Shown here one piece after another: positions 6,391 through 22,219 of a stretch of 29,664 bases of DNA. The position numbers and the translations under genes were made by a program. The notes beneath the pieces are model-generated. The model ran no database searches. It was not told the DNA's origin and saw nothing but the letters and a program-made list of their open reading frames with translations. Position 1 is the first letter of the stretch; each line of letters starts with the position of its first letter. This DNA comes from a virus, in IMG/VR virus record IMGVR_UViG_3300042352_000050, positions 1 to 29,664 of that record. The stretch is one strand, 5' to 3'.

Positions 6391-7215
6391 TTAGTATCTA
6401 AGGCTTACTTTATTTCTACTTCTATAATTGTAAATATCTTCAATTAATGTTTTGTATTGCTCACGATTAGCACAATCAACTAATGCGGTTGGTTGTAATC
6501 TTAATTTATGCATAAACTCATTAAAATCAAAATTTTCATTTTTAAATAATACAATCATTGTTCCAACAAATGCTGTTCGATTGTATCCTAAATAATATGT
6601 TTTAACCATTCGTATTTTATTAGCCCAATCTTGAGCCAAATTAAAATTTTTACCTTTCCAAGTTCCTTCTTCAAAAATTTCAGTCATATTATATGTTTTT
6701 TTATCAGCAGTTCTTATTTTTTGGCTTGCATCAGAAGAAGATGAACCTGATAAATTAGAACATAATGCAATGCAATCATTAAAAGTATAATCATCATTTT
6801 TTATTGAAAAATCACGAAGTTTAATATAAGATTCTATTCCCATATTAGCGTAACCATCCATAAAATCTTTTTTAGTCCAATTCTTTTGATTAAGATTTAA
6901 TGTATGAACTTCATTTAACGAATATCCATTTACAATAATGTAGTAAACAAATGATTCAGCTTCTTTAGCAGCCATCAAACGATGTTGACCGTCAATCACT
7001 TCCATCTTTTCATTTACTAAAATTGGATTGCATTTCATTCCATAAACACGAATTGAATCAGCTAACCGATTAATGTGTTGTAAGTTTGGAACTCTGTTAC
7101 CATCAATAGATTTGAACATTGACAAATCATTTGTTTTGTAAACCTTGTTTACTTCTGTTTTTAGTTGCACGTGGGTACTATTATTCCCCATTGGTGCTGT
7201 TGTTGTGTTGAACAT
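6391..7215 (-). CDS. ParB/Srx-fold protein (274 aa)
   Basis: Residues about 35-85 carry the ParB N-terminal signature: HINRLADSIRVYGMKCNPIL followed by DGQHR (75-79), the nucleotide-binding motif of the ParB/sulfiredoxin fold. The remaining 190 residues are helical and not recognised. Proteins of this type in phages of this group have been linked to partition-like or regulatory DNA binding; a CTPase activity is possible but not shown. Composition is distinct: 12 of 14 Glu codons are GAA, whereas 11 of the first 12 in terL are GAG. The gene is also visibly more AT-rich than its neighbours, which suggests recent acquisition. It starts 2 nt after the exonuclease gene. Confidence 0.8.
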   Translation of the reverse strand: MFNTTTAPMGNNSTHVQLKTEVNKVYKTNDLSMFKSIDGNRVPNLQHINRLADSIRVYGMKCNPILVNEKMEVIDGQHRLMAAKEAESFVYYIIVNGYSLNEVHTLNLNQKNWTKKDFMDGYANMGIESYIKLRDFSIKNDDYTFNDCIALCSNLSGSSSSDASQKIRTADKKTYNMTEIFEEGTWKGKNFNLAQDWANKIRMVKTYYLGYNRTAFVGTMIVLFKNENFDFNEFMHKLRLQPTALVDCANREQYKTLIEDIYNYRSRNKVSLRY

Positions 7216-9809: not shown

Positions 9810-12203
9810 TTAAAATGGTGTTTCTGTTTTTACTTCAATATTATCCCATACATCCTCATCTTGAGGAGGTTGTACATTATCACTCTCAAATACTATCCAT
9901 CTGATATTATTTGTTTTACCTTCAAAAATCTTATACTTATGATACTCAGCAAATACATGCAGCCATTGAGTAAATTTCTTTTTACTTAGCTTAGTATAGT
10001 CAGTGTACTCCTCAGTAAATAATCTATGCAACTCATCTTTGTACAGCCTTGTATTAAGTGGTAAATGGTCATCTTTTGACCATTCATAGAACTCAAATGA
10101 TGTCTCTTTTATAAACTTCCTTACATCAAGATTAGTGAAGTCATGAGATACAAGTCCATTCTTAAGATAGTATTGACAGCAGTTAATCATGTAACTATCA
10201 AATCTTGCCCACTCCTCCTCATTCCAATCATCAAATAACATGTGGCCAAACTCATCAAGAGGTGAACGGTGGTATCCAAAATAATCAGACATCTCTACCT
10301 CAAAATTTCTGCGTTCAAATGACCCACCTACTCCTCCGATGGTGTAATTTGTAGTGATGACTATCTTAGGTGATTTTGTAACAGGTAACTTGATAGCATC
10401 TTGACCTTTATACTCAAGAGTAATACCTTCTGTTATCAATGAGAATAGATTTTCAAAGTTAAAATGCTTTTTTACATCATCAAATACTAATAATTGAGTA
10501 TCAGTTGAAACAGTCTGATAAGGAAATGACTTAGTAAACTCAAAAGTTTTACCATCTATTGAGGATACTTTCTTAAGTTTGGCAAGAGCATTCCAAAATA
10601 AACCCTTACCACTTCCCCCATTAGGATTCTCAGAAATAGTCTGATCATTGAAAATAATTGCTTTGTTATTTGCTGAGGTCTTATAAGAATGCATCAAGTA
10701 TCCTATCACTGACTTAAAGCTATTGTATTTTGCTGAGTCCTTACCACTAATGAGCCATAAAAAAGTTCTAAATTCTGATTTATGATGATCACATTTTTTA
10801 TATTCTCTATCAACTATCTGTTTTTTCCATACATATCCATTCAAATCAATGTACTCATGCTCTTTAATTCCTTGCTTTGTAATCTCAATACAGCTGTTTC
10901 TATAGTATAAGTAACACTTATCAGCAGTATCCTCAAGCATATCAACTTCTGAGCTATCAAGCATGGATAAAAATTCAGATGTGAAATACTTTGAACTACC
11001 TGCCATCAAGTCATAAGGTTGAAATCCTATCTCTTCTCTGGATAAAAGAGAGCTAAGAGTAAAATCTTTTATTCTCTTCTCATTTGTCTCTTCAATTAGA
11101 TTCTGCTCTTTGCGAATAAAGGTGTAAGTATTACTGTCAGTTGGAAAGTACTTAAAAAAGTTGTTTTGTTGTAGCCAAAATTTAAACTGATGGATGCTAA
11201 GTTGTATTTTATTTTGCTTTGTGTAAGTCCAAAAGTCATCAATGTTACCTGTATCTTTTATAGAGTCAACACACTTCTCAATCTCATCTTGAGAGAACTC
11301 AGGCAATGACTTAACTATATCAGATGTTTTTTTACCTGCTCTTATTTGTTTCTCAATCTTTTCTTTTGAGATAGCATCCTCAAAAAACTTAGTGCCAAAC
11401 TGTGAGCTTTTAGAATAGGCACTTTTAATTATTTTAAGTATCTCCTTATCCTTACCTCCCTCATCAAATTTAAGTAACACATTCTCACACTCAGATTTAT
11501 TGATGCCATAATCATTAAAAGCAGAGGCCAGGATAAAAAGATTATTATTCTTAGCTCCTGCCACCATGCCATACTTTTTATCCCACCATTTTAGTAAGTT
11601 TTCTATTATTCTATTATCTGACTTAATGGGTATTGTAACATCTGAGCTACCAATATCATCAAGGTCAGGCTCTTCAATCTGAGTCCATTCTAATGAGTTT
11701 ACATTGAGGTATAACTCTGGATCATAAGACTCAAAACAAAATCTATCAATATTACTTCCTGTATTATCCCAATACTCTGAGTCAAAGTATGACCTTAATG
11801 AGTCAAAATATCCTTTGAAGTTACCTTCCTTTGGTATCTTAACAAGAGCTTTTACTCCCTTCCCAGATGGTGATATCCATGCAGAGAATATATAGTTATC
11901 TTTTATTAACTCATCTTTGAATTGCTTAGCCTCATCTTTATAAGCCATGTCATCAAAGTCCAAAACTATCAATCCTGACCTTTGATTGAGCCCTGATATT
12001 TTTCTATGAGTAAATGTGCCATTGAAACACACTCCAGGAAGTTCATTCTTATAAGGTTTTTGCTCATCCTTTGTAGCAAATGACCTTACTTTGTCAACTA
12101 ATTCTTTTGATTTTCCTTCCTTGATTCTTTGGAGGCAATATAAAACATCCTTATTATAAGGGGTGGTGGTATCAGTTACCTTTTTAAATATAGATACAAT
12201 CAT
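9810..12203 (-). CDS. Primase-helicase: BT4734-like N-terminal domain plus SF3-like helicase
   Basis: This is the main replication enzyme (797 aa). Residues about 1-165 form a BT4734-like/VirE N-terminal domain with GLIVLDFDD (77-85) and SPSGKGVKAL (111-120), the acidic and glycine-rich motifs of primase-like folds. A linker and helical region (about 195-330) follow. A helicase domain (about 500-680) has Walker A NGGSGKG (528-534), Walker B LLVFDD (571-576), the sensor ITTNY (616-620) and paired Arg near 631-632. A C-terminal winged-helix-like part ends the protein. It should unwind and prime DNA at the adjacent origin-like region. Two copies of a 14-bp repeat directly precede its start codon. 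Confidence 0.88.
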   Translation of the reverse strand: MIVSIFKKVTDTTTPYNKDVLYCLQRIKEGKSKELVDKVRSFATKDEQKPYKNELPGVCFNGTFTHRKISGLNQRSGLIVLDFDDMAYKDEAKQFKDELIKDNYIFSAWISPSGKGVKALVKIPKEGNFKGYFDSLRSYFDSEYWDNTGSNIDRFCFESYDPELYLNVNSLEWTQIEEPDLDDIGSSDVTIPIKSDNRIIENLLKWWDKKYGMVAGAKNNNLFILASAFNDYGINKSECENVLLKFDEGGKDKEILKIIKSAYSKSSQFGTKFFEDAISKEKIEKQIRAGKKTSDIVKSLPEFSQDEIEKCVDSIKDTGNIDDFWTYTKQNKIQLSIHQFKFWLQQNNFFKYFPTDSNTYTFIRKEQNLIEETNEKRIKDFTLSSLLSREEIGFQPYDLMAGSSKYFTSEFLSMLDSSEVDMLEDTADKCYLYYRNSCIEITKQGIKEHEYIDLNGYVWKKQIVDREYKKCDHHKSEFRTFLWLISGKDSAKYNSFKSVIGYLMHSYKTSANNKAIIFNDQTISENPNGGSGKGLFWNALAKLKKVSSIDGKTFEFTKSFPYQTVSTDTQLLVFDDVKKHFNFENLFSLITEGITLEYKGQDAIKLPVTKSPKIVITTNYTIGGVGGSFERRNFEVEMSDYFGYHRSPLDEFGHMLFDDWNEEEWARFDSYMINCCQYYLKNGLVSHDFTNLDVRKFIKETSFEFYEWSKDDHLPLNTRLYKDELHRLFTEEYTDYTKLSKKKFTQWLHVFAEYHKYKIFEGKTNNIRWIVFESDNVQPPQDEDVWDNIEVKTETPF

Positions 12204-12231
12204 ATTAATCTCGTTTTATTAATCTCGTTTT
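12204..12231. repeat. Tandem 14-bp repeat at the primase-helicase start
   Basis: ATTAATCTCGTTTT occurs twice head to tail (12204-12217 and 12218-12231), abutting the start codon at 12203. A short inverted copy of its core (AACGAGA) is at 12251-12257. The position fits an operator controlling the primase-helicase or part of the origin. Confidence 0.75.
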
Positions 12232-12296
12232 AAAAAAATAGGGGGAAAGGAACGAGAACAAACCTTTTACTGGGCAGCTAACCGCAAACCCCTGTA

Positions 12297-12330
12297 CAAA
12301 ATTAAAAATAAATTCCATAAATATGACAAA
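12297..12330 (-). promoter_or_regulatory. Possible host-type promoter for the primase-helicase operon
   Basis: On the minus strand TAATTTTG (12304-12297) fits TAnnTTTG, and a TTTG lies at 12330-12327, separated by 22 nt, slightly beyond the usual 19-21. The second match TAGATTTG (12334-12327) overlaps the TTTG and lacks its own upstream box. The transcript would have a leader of about 85 nt that runs through the tandem 14-mers. Confidence 0.4.
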
Positions 12331-12345
12331 TCTATAAAATTTTTT

Positions 12346-12369
12346 ATTTGTACCTATATTTGTACCTAT
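12346..12369. repeat. Tandem 12-bp iteron-like repeat
   Basis: ATTTGTACCTAT occurs twice without spacing (12346-12357 and 12358-12369). Related GTACCT sequences occur inverted at 12405-12410 and direct at 12511-12516. Read on the minus strand as TAGGTACAAATA it resembles binding repeats of origin proteins. Confidence 0.65.
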
Positions 12370-12526
12370 TAAAATCCTTTATTTATAAGGTTTTCATTAA
12401 AATTAGGTACACAAATACACTTTATTTTGCTATTTTATAGATGTTGAAAAAAAATATTTCTTTAAAAAAAATAATATATAAGGGATATACATGAGAAAAT
12501 GTGTACTTAAGTACCTAAATAGGCAC

Positions 12527-12557
12527 AAAAAAACCCTTCCAGCAGTGCCAGAAGGGT
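12527..12557 (-). terminator. Rho-independent terminator after the first early operon
   Basis: On the minus strand a 7-bp stem (ACCCTTC with its partner at 12539-12533) encloses an 11-nt loop that can pair further. It is followed by seven T residues (12533-12527). It lies just past the DnaA-domain gene and would keep early transcription out of the origin-like region. Confidence 0.8.
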
Positions 12558-12587
12558 CAAACAAATAATTAATCAAAACAGTATGGA

Positions 12588-12956
12588 CTACAAATTTAAT
12601 TCTTTGTAGAGATTATTCTTAATTCTGAACTTAATTTTTCGTAATTGTTTTAAACAAAAACAGTTCATCACGTCATCAACAAGGTTATGATCTTCATTAT
12701 AATTCTCAAAGATCAACATGAGCTCCTCAATATAGTCAAGGTATATTTTATCCTTAATTGAGATTAGATCATGGTGAGTTTTAAGTCCATGTATCACACT
12801 TGCATGATCTCTGTTAAACATTGCCGCTATCTCATACAGTGTAAGTCCTTCCTCTCTAAGTAGGTTGTAAAGATAGAAACGTTTGTAAGTGTAGTGTCTA
12901 TATCTGTGTCGTGCTTTGAGGTTGTTATCCTCAATGTATTGTATTATGTCAGTCAT
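12588..12956 (-). CDS. DnaA domain IV-like DNA-binding protein
   Basis: Residues about 36-60 read LTLYEIAAMFNRDHASVIHG, matching the signature of the DnaA C-terminal domain, in which RDHxxVxH forms the DnaA-box recognition helix. The AAA+ ATPase part of DnaA is absent: the whole protein is 122 aa with an ordinary N-terminal helix region and an unrecognised C-terminus. It probably binds a DNA repeat, either at the phage origin just downstream (12.2-12.5 kb) or at host DnaA boxes. It is the last gene of the first early operon, ahead of a terminator, and starts with ATGA coupling to the small membrane ORF. Confidence 0.75.
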   Translation of the reverse strand: MTDIIQYIEDNNLKARHRYRHYTYKRFYLYNLLREEGLTLYEIAAMFNRDHASVIHGLKTHHDLISIKDKIYLDYIEELMLIFENYNEDHNLVDDVMNCFCLKQLRKIKFRIKNNLYKELNL

Positions 12957-20964: not shown

Positions 20965-21513
20965 ATGGTAAAAATTTTAGACAAAGAAATTCCTAATCAA
21001 TTGAAGGAGTTAACAGTGCAACAGTTTGAGGATATCACATCTATCCATGCACAACAGGACTTAGATGCTATTGAGAAACATCTTAAAGTATTTGAGTTGT
21101 TTGGTATTACTGAGAATGACTTTGAGCATACCACTATTGAACAGTTCAAAACTTATGTCAAGGATTTTAACAACATCAAAGGTAAGCCAGAACTACAGTC
21201 AACTATTGAGCTTGATGGATACAAGTACACAGCCTTTGAAGGTGAGGAGTTCAAGTTATCAGTGAGAGACACTAAGCACATTGAGAAGGTCATGAACTCA
21301 AGGCATAAAGGATATATCTCTGAGATGTTAGGTATCTTATTCAAGAGAGATGATCTAAGCAAGGCAGAACACTATGATACTACTCATATCAAGCATAAGG
21401 CAAAAATGATAAGAGAGCTCAAGTCAGAGTTAGCAGTTCCTTACTTAGTAGAAATTGGACAAAAACTGTCCAAAGAAATCAAGAGAAATGAAGCTCCCGA
21501 AATCGTGGAGTGA
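20965..21513 (+). CDS. Tail assembly chaperone-like protein, first paralog (182 aa)
   Basis: The N-terminal part (PNQLKELTVQQFEDITSIHA, then KVFELFGITENDFEHTTIEQ) reads like tail assembly chaperones, in which a short LTxxQFxxI motif precedes helices. It matches the next gene in the same order (LKELTVQQFEDI vs WSEIDVLQFKEI; KLSVRDTKHIEKVM vs KLTCGEFIDLEYFF). In siphophages these proteins coat the tape measure before tube assembly, often as a G/GT frameshift pair; here two tandem genes take that place. It is on the plus strand, unlike all other structural genes. Confidence 0.65.
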   Translation: MVKILDKEIPNQLKELTVQQFEDITSIHAQQDLDAIEKHLKVFELFGITENDFEHTTIEQFKTYVKDFNNIKGKPELQSTIELDGYKYTAFEGEEFKLSVRDTKHIEKVMNSRHKGYISEMLGILFKRDDLSKAEHYDTTHIKHKAKMIRELKSELAVPYLVEIGQKLSKEIKRNEAPEIVE

Positions 21514-22219
21514 GATTGATGTCCTGCAGTTTAAAGAGATAAGAGAGTTATATTCTATTGAGGAGGTATTTGCCAGAGAGATAGAGATACTCTCAGCTCT
21601 TGCAGGAGTGAGCTCAGATCAACTTGAGGACTTAGATGTAAGTGAGGTTAGTAATATGCTCAATGATATTACATTCATTAACTCTGAGCCATCTAAAAAC
21701 TACAAGAGAGACATTGAGCAATGGAAGGTCAAGCCACTATCTAAGCTGACCTGTGGTGAGTTCATTGACTTAGAGTATTTCTTTGCCAATGACTATATTA
21801 AGCATCTTTGTCATATAGCATCTATCATGTACAGGCAACATACCACTAATGAGTGGGGGCAGTTGAGCTTTGAGCCTTATGAGTTCAATCCATTTGACCG
21901 GCATGAACTATTTGATGAGTACTGTATCAATGATATCTATGGTATCATACCTGAGTACCTATCATTTAGACAGGATTTCATGGATAAGTATCACTTACTT
22001 TTTAATGAAGAGGATGGAGATGAGGAGGATGATAATAAACCAATGACATCCGATGAGTCTAAGGCACAAGCTGAACAAAAGTCTGCTGTAAAGTGGGGAT
22101 GGGAACGCCTGCTCTACTCACTTTGTAATGAGGATTTGACTAAGTTTAAGCAAGTCACTGACCTGCCTCTTATCCTTACCTTTAATATGCTGTCAATGAA
22201 AAAAGAGCTTAATCTATAA
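21488..22219 (+). CDS. Tail assembly chaperone-like protein, second paralog (243 aa)
   Basis: Start chosen at the ATG 21488, 26 nt inside the previous gene and in the +1 frame relative to it; an upstream TTG at 21455 is less likely. The N-terminal half parallels the first paralog. The centre has KLTCGEFIDLEYFFANDYIK and IASIMYRQ, and a later FEPYEFNPFDRHELF, which I recognise from long tail assembly chaperones of Bacteroidota phages. An acidic linker (EEDGDEEDDNKP) separates a C-terminal helix (DLPLILTFNMLSMKKEL). Its stop abuts the stop of the convergent 145-aa gene (shared 6 nt). Confidence 0.68.
   Translation: MKLPKSWSEIDVLQFKEIRELYSIEEVFAREIEILSALAGVSSDQLEDLDVSEVSNMLNDITFINSEPSKNYKRDIEQWKVKPLSKLTCGEFIDLEYFFANDYIKHLCHIASIMYRQHTTNEWGQLSFEPYEFNPFDRHELFDEYCINDIYGIIPEYLSFRQDFMDKYHLLFNEEDGDEEDDNKPMTSDESKAQAEQKSAVKWGWERLLYSLCNEDLTKFKQVTDLPLILTFNMLSMKKELNL

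Follow-up and report, generated by a model that had tools for sequence, protein, structure and literature searches.

The question raised by this locus is how replication is controlled from a 384-bp intergenic stretch (12204-12587) that lies between the gene for a DnaA-like protein and the gene for a primase-helicase. The window, by which we mean the whole stretch of DNA that was analysed, is the virus record IMGVR_UViG_3300042352_000050 with its 29,664 nucleotides. The record ends in a terminal repeat of 127 bp, which makes a complete circular map of about 29.5 kb probable, and from the promoter type and the named hosts of the primase relatives the phage host is probably a member of the Bacteroidetes. 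A preliminary description had read the stretch as a gene-free, iteron-type origin with two classes of repeats, isolated by a terminator and bound by the DnaA-like protein. The tandem 14-mers, the tandem 12-mers with their relatives, the palindrome and the A/T tracts named in it are all present, and so is the terminator, at 12558-12532 on the minus strand with 12 pairs and a U-tract. In our judgement it is likely that this replication-control region consists of two independent modules, which are DNA boxes, most likely an origin or initiator site read by the C-terminus of the primase, and a leader RNA that would tune translation of the initiator. The gene order around the region, on the minus strand, is DnaA-like gene, terminator, intergenic stretch and primase-helicase, and the framing features are as follows.

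12588 to 12956, minus strand: stand-alone DnaA domain IV-like protein of 122 amino acids, without an AAA+ domain (Pfam, AlphaFold2, Foldseek)
12532 to 12558, minus strand: intrinsic terminator of the upstream operon, directly 3' of the DnaA-like gene
9810 to 12203, minus strand: primase-helicase of 797 amino acids, with BT4734-like_N and PriCT_1 (Pfam) and a GGSGKG helicase

The DnaA-like protein matches Pfam Bac_DnaA_C with an E-value of 7.6e-6, which is under the curated cut-off. Its AlphaFold2 model has a pLDDT of 89, and the best three folds found with it in the PDB by Foldseek are DnaA DNA-binding domains, 3pvp and 1j1v among them, with probabilities of 0.99-1.00 but E-values of 0.09-0.45. 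In the primase-helicase a winged-helix-like region is predicted by AlphaFold2 at the C-terminus (about residues 700-773; pLDDT mostly about 80-92 over 711-770), the helicase part is modelled poorly, and the fold matches to the SaPI5 primase-helicase, D5 and RepB' are weak. The terminator scan gave 2 terminator-like sites compared to 0.4 expected from shuffles, and the hairpin after the DnaA-like gene is kept in relatives. At least two versions of the hairpin sequence, CTTCTGGCACTGCTGGAAG and CTCTTTGCACTGCATGGAG, are swapped among otherwise similar phages. Elsewhere in the genome the only evident plus-strand genes are two overlapping ORFs of 182 and 254 amino acids at 20965-22219, of which the 182-amino-acid ORF has no PHROG match, and a ParB-like protein (phrog_12305, E 4e-31) is encoded at 6391-7215 on the minus strand beside exonuclease and Erf annealing genes. 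No ParA, integrase or repressor was recognised beside the ParB-like gene, and no integrase or repressor among the window genes searched. GC skew, which had been proposed as a check on the origin, has no switch at 12.3 kb, and this is uninformative because nearly all genes are on one strand.

The stretch is free of protein genes over 12204-12587, as had been claimed, but it is not free of genes altogether, since a leader RNA is encoded at 12292-12204 of the minus strand. The two repeat classes are likewise both real but belong to two different modules, one to this RNA leader and the other to the DNA boxes. The leader and its promoter have the following parts.

12327 to 12330, minus strand: TTTG, candidate -33 element, 22 nt from the -7 element (sequence and comparison)
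12297 to 12304, minus strand: -7 element TAATTTTG, Bacteroidetes type (TANNTTTG; comparison of leaders)
12204 to 12292, minus strand: structured leader RNA of the primase-helicase mRNA, with P1, P2, P3, a U-tract and two loop complements (covariance model, covariation)
12289 to 12292, minus strand: 5' strand of P1, GGGG (with A12293 at -1), pairing with CCCCU at 12244-12240
12271 to 12286, minus strand: P2 hairpin UGCGGUUAGCUGCCCA, with two-sided changes in all five pairs
12246 to 12267, minus strand: P3 hairpin AAAGG-UUUGUUCUCGUU-CCUUU, its loop (12262-12251) hypervariable
12232 to 12238, minus strand: U-tract after P1, a terminator tail or a linker (from sequence)
12218 to 12231, minus strand: copy 1 of the loop complement, AAAACGAGATTAAT, in which AACGAGA pairs with UCUCGUU of the loop
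12204 to 12217, minus strand: copy 2 of the loop complement, AAAACGAGATTAAT, adjoining the start codon

Relatives share one order of parts, namely TANNTTTG, 4 nt, GGGG, P2, UAAAAGG-loop-CCUUU, CCCC, U-tract, two loop complements and ATG. In all 61 distinct leaders, which were selected without requiring a promoter, TANNTTTG is found 3-5 nt before P1, and in 51 of them exactly 4 nt before it, compared to 1% in shuffles; TTG is found 17-24 nt upstream in 34 of the 61. Given this 4-nt spacing, and given that in Flavobacterium position -5 is the G of the -7 element (PMC6847099), the transcript is predicted to start at 12292 (minus strand) on the first G of P1. An earlier candidate for the -7 element, TAGATTTG at 12335-12328, gave way to TAATTTTG at 12304-12297 once the leaders were compared. 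The promoters here are of the Bacteroidetes type, and a sigma-70 scan found promoters no more often than in shuffles. When 132 nt including the upstream A/T region were folded plainly the element was hidden (z = -0.15), and when the short RNA was folded alone the minimum-energy structure was P1-P2-P3; the leader fold is visible only with comparative data and the correct start.

An alignment of 31 sequences (A1) was made by MAFFT without structure and from it the covariance model R1 was built, against which the window, itself one of the building sequences, scores 80 bits. The matches of R1 were realigned (A2, 61 rows; A5, 59 rows, with diverse members from two further pattern scans). In A5, 95.4% of the cells pair compared to 77% in shuffles and 45-63% when the partners are slid, and there are 117 two-sided cells compared to 29 in shuffles; alignments fitted to a structure lean towards it, and the structure-free A1 shows the same P2 exchanges. 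Ten of the 15 pairs, which are all the pairs of P1 and P2, change on both sides (55 distinct aligned sequences). In P1 this holds for all five pairs (for example GGGAG/CUCCC and GGCAG/CUGCC), and in P2, the loop of which is UUAGCU or in many relatives GGCA, 98% of the cells are paired. The P3 stem hardly varies, nor does the UAAAAGG before it, and the support for P3 is conservation and not covariation.

The tandem 14-mers had been taken for iterons. The 14-mer TATTAATCTCGTTT is present in two exact copies at 12203-12230 that abut the ATG at 12203, and AACGAGA, which is in both copies, is absent from the rest of the genome on either strand outside the loop and the copies. Among the 95 distinct forms in which the leader was found, all in uncultivated phage contigs, the P3 loop has 36 distinct versions, and loop and copies change together. 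When the 36 loops were compared outside any alignment, the complementarity of loops to their own copies was 682.5 and the maximum in 20,000 permutations was 490; leaders in the later selection had been admitted only with 5 or more complementary bases downstream and a TANNTTTG box. The first 21 loops, for which complementarity had not been demanded, gave 413 compared to 317 in permutations. Copy 1 is usually the stronger partner, and some members have a weak copy 2 or none. From these comparisons the 14-mers are complements of the P3 loop, predicted to pair with it at the RNA level, and not iterons, and the leader structure, the loop-copy pairing and the promoter position are all supported by comparison.

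The window matched no family of Rfam 15 at the gathering score, C4 antisense RNA included, and a relaxed Rfam search gave sub-threshold hits alone, due to chance or to a terminator, three of them on the upstream terminator. The leader had no match in the phage and plasmid record collections, and a covariance-model search of 395 genomes, sampled from one bacterial class that contains a Prevotellaceae MAG, found none under strict filters and with no positive control. Nine pattern hits in genome contigs were due to chance, as none had the P3 hairpin or the complements. The literature on structured leader RNAs in Bacteroidetes phages consists, in the part of it that was covered, of general surveys, and an earlier description elsewhere is possible. 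Within the literature and databases searched, then, the leader appears to be a folded RNA without earlier description.

The leader is found before genes of several kinds, which are the primase-helicase family of the window, the PrimPol/DUF3987 primase-helicase, and DUF6291, DnaD-like, Lin1244_N and DUF7833 proteins. It is always on the sense strand of the downstream gene, and the same loop types recur before unrelated genes. In one case (L314, 1120-1209, minus strand) the leader precedes an HNH-like protein and not a replication gene. Loop types also differ where the surroundings do not, since in 30 of the 127 pairs of loci with both flanks at least 90% identical the loops are less than 70% identical. 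Two such loci, L011 and L015, are identical in 641 nt of upstream and 417 nt of downstream sequence and differ in 14 columns within the 43 nt of loop and copies, with complementarity kept in both; these two are metagenome assemblies, and the loop types are met again in many independent contigs. No leader is present in relatives whose primases are at most 68% identical, and at five loci an HNH-like ORF replaces it, so that it is not essential for the primase-box module; judged by sequence, leader and boxes are independent modules. At L059, L060, L061, L063 and L068 an HNH/homing-type-endonuclease-like ORF, recognised by eye, is present between boxes and primase, where the leader RNA is missing and the boxes remain. 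Five other loci (L014, L025, L027, L028 and L030) have a DnaA-like protein 95-99% identical and a primase 47-48% identical to those of the window, and a different leader, with a GGTCTGAC...GTCAGACC stem, directly after the TANNTTTG box (about 6716-6826 in L014), while L095 has yet another hairpin leader. Other classes of leader RNA may exist.

What the pairing of loop and copies does can be read in two ways, both of which are versions of the leader module. The reading that we hold somewhat the better of the two, at a little short of an even chance, is a translational pseudoknot switch that acts only in cis, in which the loop pairs with one or the other copy in its own mRNA and thereby hides or frees the start codon. 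Such a switch would perhaps be controlled by a ligand or a protein on P2/P3, and the loop types would be ordinary compensatory drift together with recombination. The covariation, the position of copy 2 at the AUG and the near invariance of the P3 stem and UAAAAGG while the loop varies are consistent with it, structure at the start codon lowers translation in Flavobacterium (PMC6847099), and a pseudoknot is described as controlling IncI-alpha repZ in a reference cited in PMC10724649. By itself, however, a cis switch leaves unexplained why whole cassettes are switched in identical backgrounds and why there are two target copies. These are the observations that speak for the second reading, which we regard as possible but less probable than the first and which is compatible with the box module: that transcription mostly ends at the U-tract and leaves an RNA of about 60 nt, which would act in trans, for immunity or incompatibility, when its P3 loop pairs with the two sites at the start of an initiator mRNA, be it from that phage or from another in a co-infection. 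The target would be a phage of the same loop type, and loop types would mark groups of immunity or incompatibility, like those of P4 CI RNA, P1/P7 C4 RNA and plasmid antisense RNAs. The loop types are exchanged as cassettes where the surroundings are otherwise the same, identical types are found before unrelated genes, the U-tract is behind a G/C helix and there are two target sites; one loop nucleotide sets IncK plasmid compatibility (PMC10724649) and C4 RNA sets P1/P7 heteroimmunity (PMC12197685). Against this, termination at the U-tract is putative, the covariation is explained equally well by pairing in cis, and a prophage state is not indicated, as no integrase or repressor was recognised and the leader was found in 0 of the 395 genomes (no positive control). 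Action in cis and action in trans give the same signal in the sequence, which by itself cannot separate them.

No antisense -7 element was found at 12001-12260 of the window, and in relatives an antisense promoter was found for 5 of 89 leaders compared to 11.5 expected. With no antisense promoter, it would therefore be the leader itself that pairs, either within its own mRNA or as a short RNA released by termination. For the leader module we propose that the transcript would start at the first G of P1 and fold into P1, P2 and P3, and that the P3 loop would pair with the two complements further downstream, of which the second adjoins the AUG. Most likely this pairing tunes, and probably represses, translation of the initiator, which would limit the initiator and the copy number of the genome. 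In Bacteroidetes, which lack Shine-Dalgarno sequences, initiation is reduced by structure around the start codon (PMC6847099), which is why the pairing of copy 2 would be expected to repress; copy 1 may be a competitor of copy 2 or its helper. The steps that we infer are the regulation, its being repression, and the mode of action of the loop, which may be a pseudoknot in cis or a short terminated RNA in trans.

The second module is upstream of the promoter; the 384-bp intergenic stretch has 4 AGGTAC sites compared to 0.14 expected, and 3 AGGTACA sites compared to 0.03 expected. Its features are these.

12345 to 12368, minus strand: two exact tandem boxes, the 12-mer TATTTGTACCTA / TAGGTACAAATA, at 12-bp spacing just upstream of the promoter
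12403 to 12417, plus strand: inverted box TTAGGTACACAAATA, an inverted relative of the tandem 12-mers
12419 to 12497, no strand: A/T-rich core between the boxes, a candidate unwinding element, A/T-rich at the same place in relatives
12498 to 12518, no strand: box pair TTAGGTAC-TTAAGTACACA surrounding the palindrome GTACTTAAGTAC (12503-12514), with a counterpart in relatives

At the position of the tandem boxes relatives have tandem AGGTAC, GGGGCA or GTTTACAGT boxes. Viral contigs were scanned with the DnaA-like protein and with the primase, which gave 117 loci, and among these relatives the DnaA-like gene and the primase are freely recombined. Loci with DnaA-like proteins at least 95% identical have four different box families: AGGTACA boxes with primases 98-100% identical, AGGTACTT boxes with primases 75-76% identical, CAGTACAAA boxes with primases 47-48% identical, and GTTTACAGT boxes with a DUF3987 primase-helicase downstream. 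AGGTAC boxes accompany DnaA-like proteins that are only 30-72% identical when the primase is of the window type. Since box type in both directions tracks the primase and not the DnaA-like protein, the boxes, as far as sequence comparison goes, belong with the downstream replicase and not with the DnaA-like gene. Repeated boxes are upstream of 58 of the 67 leader-bearing primase-helicases, the other 9 being under the box threshold, and upstream of 0 of the 20 other leader-bearing genes (p = 4e-13, which is optimistic through the relatedness of the loci). Within the primase, residues of about 661-797 alone clearly track GGTAC versus GGGGCA boxes (partial r 0.70 and 0.69, 0 of 300 permutations) and other windows of the protein have a partial r of at most 0.26; the switches behind this correlation that count as independent are few, all GGGGCA loci fall in one clade, and relatedness is not taken out by the permutation. 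At the C-terminus of the DUF3987 primase there is a weak HTH match. From the correlation, the predicted fold and the analogues considered below, the boxes probably bind the phage's own primase-helicase through its C-terminal winged-helix-like region. Of the iteron-type origin as it had been proposed, the 12-mer/AGGTAC boxes and the A/T-rich core, which recur upstream of the primase-helicases of relatives, are retained as a plausible candidate for an iteron-type origin or initiator-binding region, and the 14-mers are not.

It is doubtful, to our mind, that the AGGTAC boxes are instead operators for a transcription regulator of the primase promoter. Replication initiators commonly autoregulate, and the tandem boxes are directly upstream of the -33 element, as operators might be. 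On the other hand, the same promoter is found without boxes before replication genes other than primases (0 of 20), the boxes also flank the A/T-rich core further upstream, and box type tracks the primase C-terminus, although the primase could still autoregulate through the boxes. The preliminary description's own reader, the DnaA-like protein bound to an iteron or DnaA-type origin, we now consider very improbable. The neighbouring gene does encode a DnaA domain IV-like protein, but box type dissociates from it both ways, the DnaA box TTWTNCACA occurs 0 times in the whole genome compared to 4.7 in shuffled sequence, and RNA pairing accounts for the 14-mers. Least credible of all is that the 14-mers and the hairpin act as DNA, as a cruciform, a recombination site or a single-strand initiation site, because the complementarity is there in DNA too but a promoter is 4 nt before P1, P1 and P2 have G-U pairs and the leader is always on the sense strand of the downstream gene. 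We return to the boxes around the A/T-rich core as a candidate origin or initiator-binding site, which would be read by the C-terminal winged-helix-like region of the downstream primase-helicase.

The closest known systems bear on both modules. SaPI Rep and Cch2 recognise iterons through a C-terminal domain (PMC7581432), and like SaPI Rep and SCCmec Cch2 the window has a primase-helicase initiator beside short repeats, whose C-terminal region may be linked to the box sequence, as the few independent switches suggest; the weak fold match to the SaPI5 primase-helicase is a further likeness. Unlike in those systems, where the repeats are downstream of rep, the boxes here are upstream, between the promoter and the preceding gene, their sequences are AGGTAC, GGGGCA or GTTTACAGT, and the N-terminus of the initiator is BT4734-like. 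By analogy the arrangement is consistent with an origin that is recognised by its own replicase, of the SaPI or P4 kind. In P4 the CI RNA of the alpha operon leader is a leader of a primase-helicase gene, with a stem-loop complementary to two other leader sites. The window leader resembles it in preceding a primase-helicase and in the complementarity of its loop to two other leader sites, but it differs in sequence and fold, both complements are downstream with one at the AUG, and no lysogeny genes were recognised in the window. C4 RNA of P1/P7 has loops complementary to the ribosome-binding region of its target mRNA and type specificity (PMC12197685). The window loop is similarly complementary near the start of the target mRNA and has types, but it has no Rfam match and its target is a replication gene and not an antirepressor. 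In the IncI/B/K repZ leader a hairpin loop pairs near the start of the initiator and its sequence sets compatibility (PMC10724649); the window loop is likewise complementary, by its sequence, to the region just upstream of the initiator start, but unlike with IncI/B/K RNAI no antisense promoter is present, no leader peptide was seen and the partner is the sense leader itself. We do not class the leader as a member of the IncI/K repZ, C4 or P4 CI systems, which are its closest working analogues.

What had appeared to be an iteron origin has thus become two testable modules. That many phage contigs from metagenomes have the leader in front of replication genes of several non-homologous kinds suggests a general control of phage replication, and the correlation of boxes with the primase C-terminus offers a route to predicting origin-initiator pairs in uncultivated phages. 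As a tentative suggestion, and one that we think rather unlikely as it stands, the leader may be a new phage RNA class, distributed over unrelated replication modules, whose swappable cassette of loop and complements defines groups of replication incompatibility or superinfection exclusion, probably in Bacteroidetes phages. If this were true, two phages that share a loop type would each shut off the initiator of the other in trans, and selection would favour rare types. The exchangeable loop types resemble specificity groups, and therefore RNA-based competition of co-infecting phages would be testable by an exchange of 40-60 nt.
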